Notes under the pieces: generated by a model
The model's database searches: none
The model's input: only the letters and a program-made list of their open reading frames with translations
Told to the model about the DNA's origin: nothing
Shown here: positions 1,307-5,374 of the stretch, in pieces
How positions within the stretch are numbered: position 1 is the stretch's first letter
Layout of the letters: the number at the start of each line of letters is the position of its first letter
Assembly: GCA_025452005.1 (NCBI GenBank)
Contig: JANWJK010000081.1
Span: 1 to 37,709 of the forward strand
Direction: 5' to 3'
Origin: Acetobacteraceae bacterium
Lineage (GTDB): Bacteria > Pseudomonadota > Alphaproteobacteria > Acetobacterales > Acetobacteraceae
DNA length: 37,709 nucleotides
Made by a program: the position numbers and the translations under genes

Positions 1307-1483
1307 GAGGCACGGCTCCCGTGAGAGAAGGGTGGCCTACGCCACCTGTCCCGCGTGCCGCAAGACAGAGCTTGGCTAGGGGTGGCGACCGCGCACCGCC
1401 TCCCCGTGGGCAGACGCCATGCGCTGTACACGAGAATGAGGAGTCGGAAGTTTTTACACTTTGGTTGTGCTCGCCCTTTGGTG

Positions 1484-1520
1484 GTCGACTAAGTGCCTGA
1501 TTTCCCTAGTGTTAGGCGAC
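1484..1520. promoter_or_regulatory. Imperfect inverted repeat upstream of the sigma-54 promoter
   Basis: gtcgactaa (1484-1492) and ttaggcgac (1512-1520) are inverted copies matching at 8 of 9 positions. They abut the -24 element. Sigma-54 promoters need an enhancer-bound activator, and PEP-CTERM genes are known to be controlled by the PrsK/PrsR two-component system, so an activator site is plausible. However, sites are usually further upstream and no sequence logo was checked. Confidence 0.35.
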
Positions 1521-1536
1521 TGGCACGCAACGTGCT
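1521..1536 (+). promoter_or_regulatory. Sigma-54 (-24/-12) promoter of the PEP-CTERM gene
   Basis: TGGCACGCAACGTGCT matches the RpoN consensus TGGCACG-N4-TTGCW at all core positions except the first T of the -12 box. The GG and GC dinucleotides have the required spacing. Transcription would start near 1546, about 48 nt before the ATG. PEP-CTERM genes are commonly sigma-54 dependent, which fits. Confidence 0.8.
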
Positions 1537-1594
1537 TCTGGTGGTTGCAGCCTCGCCTGAGGGTTGAGGGAAACGAGTCCGAAAGGAGAGATCC

Positions 1595-2317
1595 ATGCCG
1601 AAGCTCTTGTCGATACCGAGCATCTTGGCCGGAGTGGCGGCGAGTGCCCTCCTGCTGGTTGGTTCGCCCGCCGCTTATGCGGCCCCTGGGACCTGCACGA
1701 ATACGTTCGTGATCGGGGGGCCCACGTTCAGTCAGAACTTCACGATCGACGCCGGGGGCGCGACGGTAACCCCAGTCGGTGGCTCTGGGGTGTTCGACTG
1801 CATCCGGCAGCAGGATAAGCTGTTCAGTGCCTTCAGCTTCGGCGCCTTGCCGGGTAGCGGCGCGGCCGATCTGTCGTTCGGCACCGTTGGCGGCCAGGAC
1901 ACCCACAGCATCTCGCTAACTGGTTCGGGCTTGACCAATGGCAGCACGTACACGGTCGGCTACAACATCGAGGTGGTCGGGAGCCTGGCGCACCTGCTCT
2001 CCTCAAACTCGGCCATCCTGCAGTCGTCGGGTGTGGCGTCGTTGATTGAGACGTTGACAGACAATGACGGTGACACGTTCAACATCGCCTTCACGCAGGT
2101 CAATGCGACTCCCGTCAGCGGCAACACTTCAACCGCCCTCGACCCTACGGTTGTTTGGGTGGATGTGTCCGACTCACTGACGCTGTCTTCAACCCCTGGG
2201 TCGAACGCCGACGGCATCCAGAACTCCTTTGTTGAAGGTGTTCCCGAGCCAGCCTCACTGTTCGTTCTCGGGGCGGGCATCGTTGGGCTCGGCTTGGTGA
2301 TCCGCCGCCGGCACTAG
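1595..2317 (+). CDS. PEP-CTERM sorting domain protein
   Basis: 240 residues. It has an N-terminal signal peptide (about residues 1-29, ending AAYA-AP). The middle is rich in Gly, Ser, Thr and Asn (about 30-214) and low in Lys. The C-terminal sorting signal starts VPEPASL, continues with a hydrophobic helix and ends in RRRH. Proteins of this class are exported, cleaved by an exosortase (EpsH/XrtA type) and sent to the surface, often in exopolysaccharide-producing bacteria. No exosortase is in the window, so the sorter must be elsewhere. A strong Shine-Dalgarno (aaaggagag) precedes the ATG, and a sigma-54 promoter lies upstream. The central domain itself is not recognised; two cysteines (around residues 34 and 69) could form a disulfide. 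Confidence 0.9.
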   Translation: MPKLLSIPSILAGVAASALLLVGSPAAYAAPGTCTNTFVIGGPTFSQNFTIDAGGATVTPVGGSGVFDCIRQQDKLFSAFSFGALPGSGAADLSFGTVGGQDTHSISLTGSGLTNGSTYTVGYNIEVVGSLAHLLSSNSAILQSSGVASLIETLTDNDGDTFNIAFTQVNATPVSGNTSTALDPTVVWVDVSDSLTLSSTPGSNADGIQNSFVEGVPEPASLFVLGAGIVGLGLVIRRRH

Positions 2318-2334
2318 AGTCTCCTGATCCGAAC

Positions 2335-2366
2335 GACCCAGTCGCCAGGCTCCTGGTGGCTGGGTC
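2335..2366 (+). terminator. Stem-loop after the PEP-CTERM gene
   Basis: gacccagtcgccagg pairs with cctggtggctgggtc with wobbles and a very small loop, 18 nt after the stop codon. There is no strong T-run, so it is a hairpin that may act with the next one. Confidence 0.6.
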
Positions 2367-2391
2367 CGCCTTTCCGAAGTCTTCTGCTTCG

Positions 2392-2418
2392 CGCCCCGGC
2401 CTGCTGGGGCGAATTTTT
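2392..2418 (+). terminator. Rho-independent terminator
   Basis: cgcccc and ggggcg form a GC stem with an 8-nt loop, followed directly by aattttt. This is the clearest terminator in the window and closes the PEP-CTERM transcription unit. Confidence 0.7.
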
Positions 2419-2498
2419 CGCCGGCTGGCGAGAGCGCTGTCACACCAGACCGAACGCCGCTATGCTCGGGGATGATCGACCCGGAAAAGTGAGCCGAT

Positions 2499-3110
2499 AT
2501 GGTTTGGTGCAGCCGTCGCCCCGTCGCGGGCCTGGCAATCGCCGTGTGCATCTGTTCGGCCGCGGTCGCGTGGGCTCAGCAGCCCGATCATCCCTTACTG
2601 CTGCCCAAGAATGACGTCACGGTCGTCTATCGCTTCGATCGCATCGGCCTGCATGATTACCACAAGTGGCAGGTGATCTACTCCGACGTAGGGCAGCGGG
2701 TTCGTCACGATTATTTCCGCTGGTTCGAGGCGACACGGCCTTTCGTCACAGTGATCTATGACGGTCCGGCGAACCGCTTCATCACCATACACTACGAGAG
2801 CAGAAGCTACAGCGAGCGGCCGATTGGTAACACCGACAACCCCGCTGCACTGCTCAAGCCCGACATGCACTTCACCCGCCTCGGGACGTCGATCGTCGCA
2901 TTCGCTCCGTGCACCGATTGGCAGGTGCAATTTCCGGACACAAGCGAGGAGCAGGACACCGCCTGCGTGACCGACGATGGCATCGTGCTCCGCATCGTGC
3001 CGTCGAAACCGAATGTCGCGTCGATGACCGCGACCGAAATTCATTTCGGTGCACCGCCGGACGGGGCGTTCGACCCACCCGCACGCTTCAAGCGCGAGCC
3101 CGGACGTTGA
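2499..3110 (+). CDS. Secreted protein of unknown function
   Basis: 203 residues. A signal peptide covers about residues 1-26 and ends AVAWAQ. The mature part has alternating beta-strand-like patterns (VTVVYRFDRIG, VRHDYFRWFE, ITIHYESRSY). A cysteine pair appears in APCTDWQV and DTACVTDDG, likely a disulfide. The plan (two-sided beta sheet, C-DW ... ACVTDDGIVLR) resembles short LolA/DUF4412-like periplasmic proteins of acetic acid bacteria, but I cannot name the family. It stands alone downstream of the PEP-CTERM terminator and ends just before the duplicated ligase fragment. The Shine-Dalgarno is weak (ggaaaag). Confidence 0.75.
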   Translation: MVWCSRRPVAGLAIAVCICSAAVAWAQQPDHPLLLPKNDVTVVYRFDRIGLHDYHKWQVIYSDVGQRVRHDYFRWFEATRPFVTVIYDGPANRFITIHYESRSYSERPIGNTDNPAALLKPDMHFTRLGTSIVAFAPCTDWQVQFPDTSEEQDTACVTDDGIVLRIVPSKPNVASMTATEIHFGAPPDGAFDPPARFKREPGR

Positions 3111-3128
3111 TCTAGCCGGGCGAACACA

Positions 3129-3319
3129 CGGTCGCTCAGGTTGCCGACCTCGCCGCTCAGTATATTGAACAGCCGCACCATCGGCAGTTGCTGGGCCAGC
3201 AGCGGCAGCAGGCAGGCGGCCAGAAACAACGGCAGGATGCGGCATCGATGGGGGAATGCGCCGGAGCGGTCGAAGCCCAGCGTCAGCCCCGTTACCGCGA
3301 TCGCGCAGGTGAGCGGCGC
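3129..3319 (-). pseudogene. Duplicated internal fragment of the O-antigen ligase-like gene
   Basis: 191 nt that align to 4401-4600 inside the neighbouring ligase-like gene, in the same orientation, with about 10 mismatches and one 9-nt deletion. The reverse-strand translation gives LLAQQLPMVRLFNILSGEVGNLS against LAQQLPMVRLFNVLSGEAGNLS in the full gene. It has no start or other ligase domains, so it is a non-functional remnant. Its edge (3319) lies 4 nt from the stop codon of the antitoxin gene, so the toxin-antitoxin pair sits exactly between the remnant and the intact gene. Confidence 0.85.
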
Positions 3320-3322
3320 CCT

Positions 3323-3934
3323 TCAAACCAGCTCAAGCCGCAGCTCGCGGCCAACCAAGGCGGCCGCACGCTGCAGGCTTTCGACGGTCACGTTGCCTTT
3401 CGCCTTCAGAATGCGGTCGACCTGTGCACGGCTAGTGTGCATGCGCTGGGCGAGCTCCGCCTTGGTGATGCCCTGGCGTTCCATCTCCCTGACAAGCTGC
3501 CAGGCGACGACGCGGGTCACCGCTTCGGCATTTGCCGCTTCACGGATGCCTTCCTCCGCCAGGAAGGCATCGAGAGTAGTGCCCCAATGGGGATTCTTCG
3601 CGCTCACGCCTGCATATCCTTCATCCGCCGCCGCGCCAGGTCCAAATCCCCCGCCGGCGTTCTCTGAGTTCTTCTTGATGAAGCCATGCACCACACCGAT
3701 CCGCCTCCTATGGACAAAGAACAGCAGCCGCGCGATGCGGCTGCTCGGCAGTGGACTGCGAACCTCCCACAGGCCGTCGCCGAGGGGCCGGCACAGCGGC
3801 ATCCCGATCGGCCAGCCAAACTGGACCGTGGCGAGATCGGTGCCGATTGCCCGCCGATCTTCCGCCGGCAATCTCCGCAGCCACGCGAGCACCGGTTCCG
3901 CGCCACCAGACGTGCGATAGAAGACAACCGGCAT
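3323..3934 (-). CDS. HigB/RelE-type toxin fused in frame to XRE antitoxin by an apparent 1-nt insertion
   Basis: 203 residues. Residues 1 to about 88 match Gp49-like/HigB toxins (MPVVFYR start, EVRSPLPSSRIARLLFFV, HGFIKK). The C-terminal 94 residues match the paired XRE antitoxin (SAKNPHWG, then helix-turn-helix ITKAELAQRMHTSRAQVDRIL, ending ELRLELV). Between them, NSENAGGGFGPGAAADEGYAG is nonsense for the family. In the -1 frame the same DNA reads TQRTPAGDLDLARRRMKDMQA and a stop, the expected toxin tail. Removing one T at 3669-3670 restores toxin 3604-3934 and antitoxin 3323-3607 (GTG start) with a GTGA overlap. The toxin has lost its native C-terminus and is tethered to its antitoxin; alternatively this is a sequencing error. 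Confidence 0.85.
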   Translation of the reverse strand: MPVVFYRTSGGAEPVLAWLRRLPAEDRRAIGTDLATVQFGWPIGMPLCRPLGDGLWEVRSPLPSSRIARLLFFVHRRRIGVVHGFIKKNSENAGGGFGPGAAADEGYAGVSAKNPHWGTTLDAFLAEEGIREAANAEAVTRVVAWQLVREMERQGITKAELAQRMHTSRAQVDRILKAKGNVTVESLQRAAALVGRELRLELV

Positions 3935-3984
3935 CTCGGTCAGGCGCGCCGGGCCTATCCGCGTCTTTCCGACCTTGATTGTGT

Positions 3985-3990
3985 ATTATA
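3985..3990 (-). promoter_or_regulatory. Candidate -10 box of the toxin-antitoxin unit
   Basis: A perfect TATAAT on the minus strand lies 50 nt before the toxin ATG, inside an AT-rich patch unusual for this GC-rich region, overlapping the ligase stop codon. No good -35 at 17 nt was found. The antitoxin could autoregulate here. Confidence 0.45.
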
Positions 3991-5374
3991 AAAAGTACTG
4001 CTGCTCAAGGTCTGGAGCCTGGGCGCGCCCAACGCGATCACGGGCGAACACCGCCGCCGCGAACGTGAAGAACACGCAGGCGGTGGTCGCGATCAGCACG
4101 TTGTCGGTGTAGGCGTGCACCGCGAAGGCCAGGAACACCAGCCGCATGATCGCCTTGTCGGTCCGGCACAGCCGACGCGTGCGCCGCCACACCCATAACA
4201 CGAACAGCACGATCAGCAGTCCCCGCCCGAGCTGGCCGCCCTCTACCTCCGTGCGCAGATACTCGTTGTGCGCCGCCCAGCTCTGGATCATCCGCGCCAG
4301 CTCGCTGTCCGGCGGGATCACCGCGTTGCCAGCCCCAACCCCCCAGCCGAACCAGGGCGACGCCGCGGCCGCCTGCTCGAACAGCGGCCAGAGCAGCTCG
4401 CGGCCGCTCAGGTTGCCGGCCTCGCCGCTCAGTACATTGAACAGCCGCACCATCGGCAGTTGCTGGGCCAGCACGGCCAGCAGCGGCAGCAGGCAGGCGG
4501 CGAGCAACAGCGGCAGGATGCGGCACCGCTGGGGGAATGCGCCGGAGCGGACGAAGCCCAGCGTCAGCCCCGTTACCGCGATCGCGCAGGCGAGCGGCGC
4601 GCGGGCACCGGTCAGCACCAGGACTGCGAAGTTAGCCGCCAGGAGCAGCAGCCAGCGCGACCGGCCGTCGCGGTAAAGCTCGATCAGACAGGCGTAGATC
4701 GCGGCCAGGCAGAAGCCAGCGAGAAATGCCGGGTGGCCGAGGCCGGCCAGGCGCGCGCCGCCGCTGTCGACGAATACCGCGCGCAAACCCGCAAGGTCGA
4801 GCGCCGCTCCGCCGGCCACGGACAGCAGCGGGATCCAGGCGGTGGCGCGCACTATCGCACTGCCCCACTCAGGCGACAGTCGGCTGAATGCGAAGGCGAA
4901 GGGTGCCACCGAGCCCAGCAGCGAGCGCACACTGTCTGCCGGCGTCAGGTCGGGATGCAGCCCGTGCGCCAGTCCCGCGACGAACATCGCGACGAACGCC
5001 AGGGCAGGATTGAACACGTCGGGGTAGGGTCCGTAACGGAGAATGCACAGCAACGCGAGGCCGAGTTCGGCCGCCTTCACCGCGGCGATCGTGGGCTGAT
5101 AAGCGGCGAGACCGACTATGTCGCCGAGCGTCATCTCCAGCGTGGCGCCCGCGATCAGCAGCCAGACGACACAGACGGCGACGAGATGGCGGAATGCCAG
5201 GATGCCGACGGTCGCGACGGCGACGATCGCCAGCGGCGCCCAGAACCAGCGAGGCGCGAGCACCGCGCCGGTGGTGGCAAAGGCGAACGCTCCGCAGATC
5301 GCCAGCAGCACCGGACGGTTCCAATCGGCCTGTGCGGACCGAGGTGTCGGCAGTGGGTTCGCCATGGTCCACAT
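3986..5374 (-). CDS. O-antigen ligase/polymerase family membrane protein (Wzy_C)
   Basis: 462 residues with about 10-12 hydrophobic segments (from about residue 22 to 450). A large periplasmic loop carries the Wzy_C-type landmarks: LTGARAPL (the conserved Arg region), NLSGRELLWPLFEQ, FGWGVGAGN and AHNEYLRTEVEGG. These match the O-antigen ligase WaaL/polymerase Wzy family (PF04932), inner-membrane enzymes that join polyprenyl-linked glycans. Which glycan is used cannot be told. It stands alone upstream of the toxin-antitoxin unit. An internal piece (4401-4600) is copied at 3129-3319. The ATG at 5374 or the one at 5365 could start it. Confidence 0.85.
   Translation of the reverse strand: MWTMANPLPTPRSAQADWNRPVLLAICGAFAFATTGAVLAPRWFWAPLAIVAVATVGILAFRHLVAVCVVWLLIAGATLEMTLGDIVGLAAYQPTIAAVKAAELGLALLCILRYGPYPDVFNPALAFVAMFVAGLAHGLHPDLTPADSVRSLLGSVAPFAFAFSRLSPEWGSAIVRATAWIPLLSVAGGAALDLAGLRAVFVDSGGARLAGLGHPAFLAGFCLAAIYACLIELYRDGRSRWLLLLAANFAVLVLTGARAPLACAIAVTGLTLGFVRSGAFPQRCRILPLLLAACLLPLLAVLAQQLPMVRLFNVLSGEAGNLSGRELLWPLFEQAAAASPWFGWGVGAGNAVIPPDSELARMIQSWAAHNEYLRTEVEGGQLGRGLLIVLFVLWVWRRTRRLCRTDKAIMRLVFLAFAVHAYTDNVLIATTACVFFTFAAAVFARDRVGRAQAPDLEQQYFL

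Follow-up and report, generated by a model that had tools for sequence, protein, structure and literature searches.

A probable decaying HigB-type toxin gene, fused by a one-base shift to a retained XRE antitoxin, in a member of the Acetobacteraceae

The window, i.e., the whole 37,709-nt stretch of Acetobacteraceae DNA analysed here, carries on its minus strand an ORF that runs uninterrupted across the domains of a toxin and its antitoxin (ORF translation; Table 1). The gene order, a PF05973 toxin followed by an HTH_3 antitoxin in one operon, is that of the intact relatives (Pfam, alignment). The preliminary description of this DNA had spoken of a HigB-like toxin without its C-terminus joined to a complete XRE antitoxin, and both statements are borne out: the Gp49 (PF05973) match (E 7e-12) covers only profile positions 1-75 of 90, compared to 1-90 of 90 in an intact relative, and an HTH_3 match lies in the 94 aa read from the GTG at 3607. 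The would-be overlap of the two genes is GTGA; intact two-gene relatives, e.g., that of the Acidiphilium multivorum plasmid pACMV1, have an ordinary ATGA/GTGA overlap.

Table 1. Features of the fused toxin–antitoxin locus and its surroundings (window coordinates)
Feature	Position	Strand	Basis or remark
Fused ORF, 203 aa; stop codon 3323-3325	3323..3934	−	ORF translation and Pfam
Toxin half, 88 codons, Gp49/DUF891 (PF05973), HigB-type	3671..3934	−	Pfam
21 out-of-frame codons NSENAGGGFGPGAAADEGYAG in place of the toxin C-terminal helix; presumed accidental linker	3608..3670	−	
Abandoned toxin tail TQRTPAGDLDLARRRMKDMQA, then TGA	3604..3669	−	+1 frame; no stops, no obvious decay
Where one base is inserted compared with homologues; which base it is, is ambiguous	3669..3671	−	DNA alignment
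XRE/HTH_3 antitoxin, complete, GTG start, 94 aa	3326..3607	−	
Shine-Dalgarno-like AAGGA, 9 nt 5′ of the antitoxin GTG	3617..3621	−	
ATA where the toxin start codon is expected (ATG in most homologues)	3956..3958	−	
Operator-like palindrome GTATTATAAAAAGTAC, minus-strand form GTACTTTTTATAATAC	3983..3998		
Partial O-antigen-ligase-like gene copy, 93-94% identical to 4401-4600, adjoining the antitoxin stop	3129..3319	−	
About 2.7 kb including the TA locus, missing between the same neighbours in G001	1354..4042		

The two halves are joined by one extra base, which in a 13-row DNA alignment (one row, G021, being without a toxin) was found at this site in the window alone and was absent from the 11 aligned homologues. 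The earlier proposal that a single additional T at 3669-3670 had fused two genes overlapping by GTGA is upheld as to the one-base cause and the overlap, the base itself being ambiguous: within AAGAAGAAC it may belong to the TT at 3669-3670 (plus strand) or be the adjacent C at 3671, and the encoded protein is identical. The abandoned tail had been assigned to the −1 frame, which was wrong: TQRTPAGDLDLARRRMKDMQA with its TGA sits one base on, in the +1 frame.

The complete toxin domain with its C-terminal helix is therefore absent from the window, its tail being out of frame; the missing piece comprises this helix and part of the preceding loop. Mapped by eye, the lost tail corresponds to the loop residue K99 and the helix residues K113 and R117 of HigB-TAC, a Gp49-like toxin of M. 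tuberculosis, where substitution of K99 abolishes toxicity and substitutions of helix residues contacting the P-site tRNA abolish activity (PMC9098466). In the HigB of S. pneumoniae, R68, R73 and F90 are the most important residues (PMC7984235), and the counterparts of R68, R73, F90 and K92 are kept in the window (by eye, from the HMMER alignment). The AlphaFold model of the fusion has a mean pLDDT of 57, with very low confidence for residues 90-126 and no secondary structure from residue 90 up to 120, and the alignment behind it was shallower than that of the control model. Given these losses, the toxin half most probably has no activity.

The toxin start is altered as well. The ATA found at the toxin-start position lies eight codons 5′ of the first ATG of the ORF, and the one other genome of the genus available for comparison (G001) has ATC there. 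In seven of the eight unfused homologues outside the genus, an ATG stands at this position (five) or within four codons of it (two), and both natural fusions discussed below (G204, G247) also have an ATG at or near it. The ATG at 3934 occupies the position of an isoleucine or leucine codon in relatives, and no Shine-Dalgarno-like sequence was seen by eye directly before it. Being in frame, it may nevertheless serve as a toxin start, which counts against decay of the toxin gene. The preliminary description had suggested a self-neutralising fusion; with both the tRNA-contacting helix, essential in HigB-TAC, and the usual start codon lost, this part of it is less well supported, as there is probably little left to neutralise.

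The preliminary description had named two origins for the extra base, a real mutation and a base-call error, and they are still the main ones to be weighed. If the base were an assembly or base-calling error, the organism would have two separate overlapping genes and a toxin with its complete tail. The tail in the other frame is indeed complete and conserved, the source assembly is a draft (74% complete, 368 contigs) in which the fused sequence is present once, and toxin codons 1-88 break only one family-conserved position; with the tail unspoilt and these codons nearly so, the insertion is either very recent or not real. However, the insertion site is not a long homopolymer, and gene/ORF tiling of the 37.7-kb window, coarse as it is, revealed no other evidently split gene, so that the indel error rate looks low. 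Moreover, a sequencing error could explain the insertion but would not by itself explain the locus, since the usual toxin start is also ATA; the same-genus copy in G001 is broken independently, and with the start codon lost, decay is credible in its own right. Real decay is thus favoured by the loss of the start codon, by the break in the G001 copy and by a window in which no further gene is evidently split, and we consider an error possible, though on the whole doubtful.

The relatives lend further weight to decay of the toxin gene. Antitoxin and toxin were each used to search 398 genomes of the family, and intact toxin–antitoxin pairs proved to be the commonest state. Beside them are loci in which the toxin is broken and the antitoxin is open: by a 13-nt deletion at codon 37 in G001, a frameshift at codon 36 in G015:C239, a stop near codon 89 in G218 and a break near codon 70 in G435; another break, at about toxin codon 48, is found in a Xanthobacteraceae record (L080). 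The toxin has gone from the loci of G005 and G021, which keep the antitoxin and the palindrome, the G021 antitoxin lacking its final residues. At some loci of the family both genes are damaged, and an intact toxin of this subfamily beside a broken antitoxin was seen in none of the 398 genomes. A toxin without its antitoxin is lethal. Such asymmetry is therefore expected anyway, all the more so as the loci share ancestry; given this non-independence and the expected direction of decay, we attach no probability to it.

The antitoxin has fared differently from the toxin. Pairwise omega, about 0.05-0.12 where it could be measured, points to long-term constraint on it, and an AAGGA-like motif recurs at the same place before the antitoxin start in two-gene relatives. 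The toxin lesions beside an open, constrained antitoxin are what a degraded TA locus with a retained antitoxin would look like. The palindrome belongs to a family of the form GTAYN8RTAC, located 5′ of the toxin or of a solitary antitoxin; its distance 5′ of the first conserved toxin codon is 53-64 nt in 10 of the 13 loci examined, the window included. It also precedes the solitary antitoxins of G005 (L050) and G021 (L058), as GTATC-N6-GATAC, which is consistent with retained autoregulation. Since both its own AAGGA/GTG start and the palindrome are kept, the antitoxin of the window is likely to be produced independently and to serve as a repressor. The suggestion that the fusion had been kept for its repressor half is thus borne out in part: conservation of the antitoxin, a ribosome-binding site and a start of its own and a candidate palindrome upstream all speak for it, as does the loss of the toxin but not of the antitoxin in relatives. 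Being translatable from its own start, free antitoxin may be supplied without the fusion, which need not be the active product. As to structures, PDB sequence matches to the antitoxin were designed repeat proteins only and were discarded.

An open fused frame is in itself no sign of selection. Among 28 distinct intact two-gene relatives whose frames are related in the same way, 15 have an antitoxin frame that is already open ahead of toxin codon 88, so a +1 insertion there would give a fusion about half the time. The alignment showed this fusion in no other genome, and a second accidental one was found in another class (G862:C24:20268-20882, L147), with a +1 shift near toxin codon 72. We regard the fusion in the window as a by-product of this frame relation. 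Two other candidates were rejected: G665 has a TGA between the halves, and a single-piece match on a Roseomonas plasmid turned out to be two annotated genes. No relatives were found in viral contigs; phage matches were distant and in two pieces, with at most 79% query cover.

An A-rich stretch at the site and the openness of both frames might suggest that programmed frameshifting or polymerase slippage at AAGAAGAAC lets a single gene yield the full toxin as well as the fusion. The required shift is +1, however, and the site lacks a run of identical bases such as slippage uses. Furthermore, no homologue shifts here, which leaves no conserved slippery site, and the toxin genes of relatives are broken at other places (codons about 36-37, 48, 70-72 and 89). 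The shift being unique to the window and a slippage run being absent, we reject this explanation as hardly credible.

Another possibility is that the fusion is a working single-chain TA protein, the antitoxin domain of which restrains the toxin domain until triggered. For fused HicAB, restraint of this kind within one chain has reportedly been proposed; for EzeT and CapRel it has reportedly been demonstrated. A precedent in the family comes from another genus, of which five genomes were available: two of these, G204 and G247, from two species, encode natural HigB-HigA single chains (L053 = G204:C110; L055 = G247:C358). A 19-nt insertion near the toxin stop, common to both, places a complete toxin in frame with the antitoxin; by eye, the insertion region in G204 can be folded into a GCGCGTC-N3-GACGCGC hairpin. 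Toxin codons 1-88 differ between G204 and G247 by 10 synonymous and no replacement changes, and so few replacements arose in 0 of 20,000 neutral simulations; the 12 differences in the antitoxin part include 5 replacement codons (P ~0.03). G247 is without an internal antitoxin ATG and hence a separate antitoxin start, and its chain is modelled confidently as one unit (pLDDT 90, pTM 0.87), the toxin part matching the structures of S. pneumoniae HigB and M. tuberculosis HigB1. The G204 and G247 loci have a 1.36-kb block in common, and G021 has the same neighbouring block with the antitoxin only. This gene looks like a maintained single-chain module, its complete toxin under strong purifying selection; sampled class- and phylum-wide searches gave no further complete-toxin fusions of this subfamily. 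Fusions of the gp49-HTH type in the RelE/ParE superfamily are already catalogued and common (69 prokaryotic; Gerdes 2025, Table 2, PMC11980606), so that the G204/G247 module is of an already known kind.

These precedents, together with the preserved counterparts of the core catalytic residues, speak for a single-chain function of the window fusion as well. Against it, the window, unlike G204/G247, has neither the C-terminal helix nor the counterpart of K99, its model is too poor to support a fold search, the usual start codon is lost, and according to the alignment its lesion is independent of the G204/G247 insertion. We therefore hold a working single-chain protein in the window to be very improbable.

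The surroundings of the locus differ between the two genomes of the genus. In G001, the beta-propeller-like and O-antigen-ligase-like genes (named from their translations) are about 22 bp apart, whereas in the window about 2.7 kb lies between them. The partial ligase copy at 3129-3319 is a direct repeat of 4401-4600 with a 9-nt deletion, which suggests duplication or recombination at insertion; since it adjoins the antitoxin stop, the module may have arrived with a rearrangement of the ligase end. The same stretch, absent from G001, also contains an ORF at 1595-2317 with a C-terminus, VPEPASLFVLGAGIVGLGLVIRRRH, that appears PEP-CTERM-like by eye, and another 203-aa ORF at 2499-3110.

Taken together, the data are best explained by a decaying toxin gene in a type II TA pair whose antitoxin is kept, the fusion being a by-product; we consider this probable. 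The ancestral locus would have been an operon in which a Gp49/HigB-type ribosome-dependent mRNase overlapped an XRE antitoxin by ATGA/GTGA. The toxin start codon would have changed to ATA, and a one-base insertion at codon 88, which we infer to be real, would have put an out-of-frame linker in place of the C-terminal helix. Over the toxin 3′ end, the antitoxin frame is by chance free of stops, so that translation of the shifted toxin would continue directly into the antitoxin, with the 203-aa fusion as a by-product. Most probably, the antitoxin is still made, mainly from its own AAGGA/GTG start; it may still bind the upstream palindrome as an autorepressor and could neutralise related plasmid-borne toxins.

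For annotation, this calls for caution: catalogued TA fusions can be plain frameshifts from decay, and the overlap of TA genes makes accidental fusions likely. A better object within the same family is the G204/G247 single-chain gene, where the shared 19-nt insertion shows how the fusion was formed. A broader but unlikely idea is that gp49-HTH operons with overlapping genes are predisposed to turn into single-chain modules, as the two proteins often become fused when the toxin 3′ end acquires a net +1 indel. The window would then hold the raw, mostly non-functional product and G204/G247 the one that selection keeps; likewise unlikely, the fusion in the window might work as a repressor with a dead toxin tethered to it.

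Among known systems, S. pneumoniae HigBA (6AF3/6AF4), M. tuberculosis HigB-TAC and the pACMV1 pair ACMV_RS18050-18045 share with the window the order of a PF05973 toxin first and an XRE protein second, and the close bicistronic relatives share the ATGA/GTGA overlap and the upstream palindrome. Unlike these bicistronic gp49/HigB modules, the window encodes no separate complete toxin. EzeT and Synechocystis Slr1999 (HicA-HicB) likewise hold toxin and antitoxin in one polypeptide, and the EzeT toxin domain was tested and found active (PMC4803016, PMC4963859); their toxin folds are different, and the toxin half in the window is incomplete. The gp49-HTH fusions, like the window, have an N-terminal PF05973 toxin and a C-terminal HTH antitoxin in one ORF; in the window, however, the toxin is cut by a frameshift, its usual start is lost, and a separate antitoxin start is kept. 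The G005 and G021 loci, with their solitary antitoxins, resemble the window in having an open antitoxin with an operator-like palindrome upstream and a toxin function that is gone or, in the window, apparently going; the difference is that in the window the greater part of the toxin gene persists and is read in the antitoxin frame.
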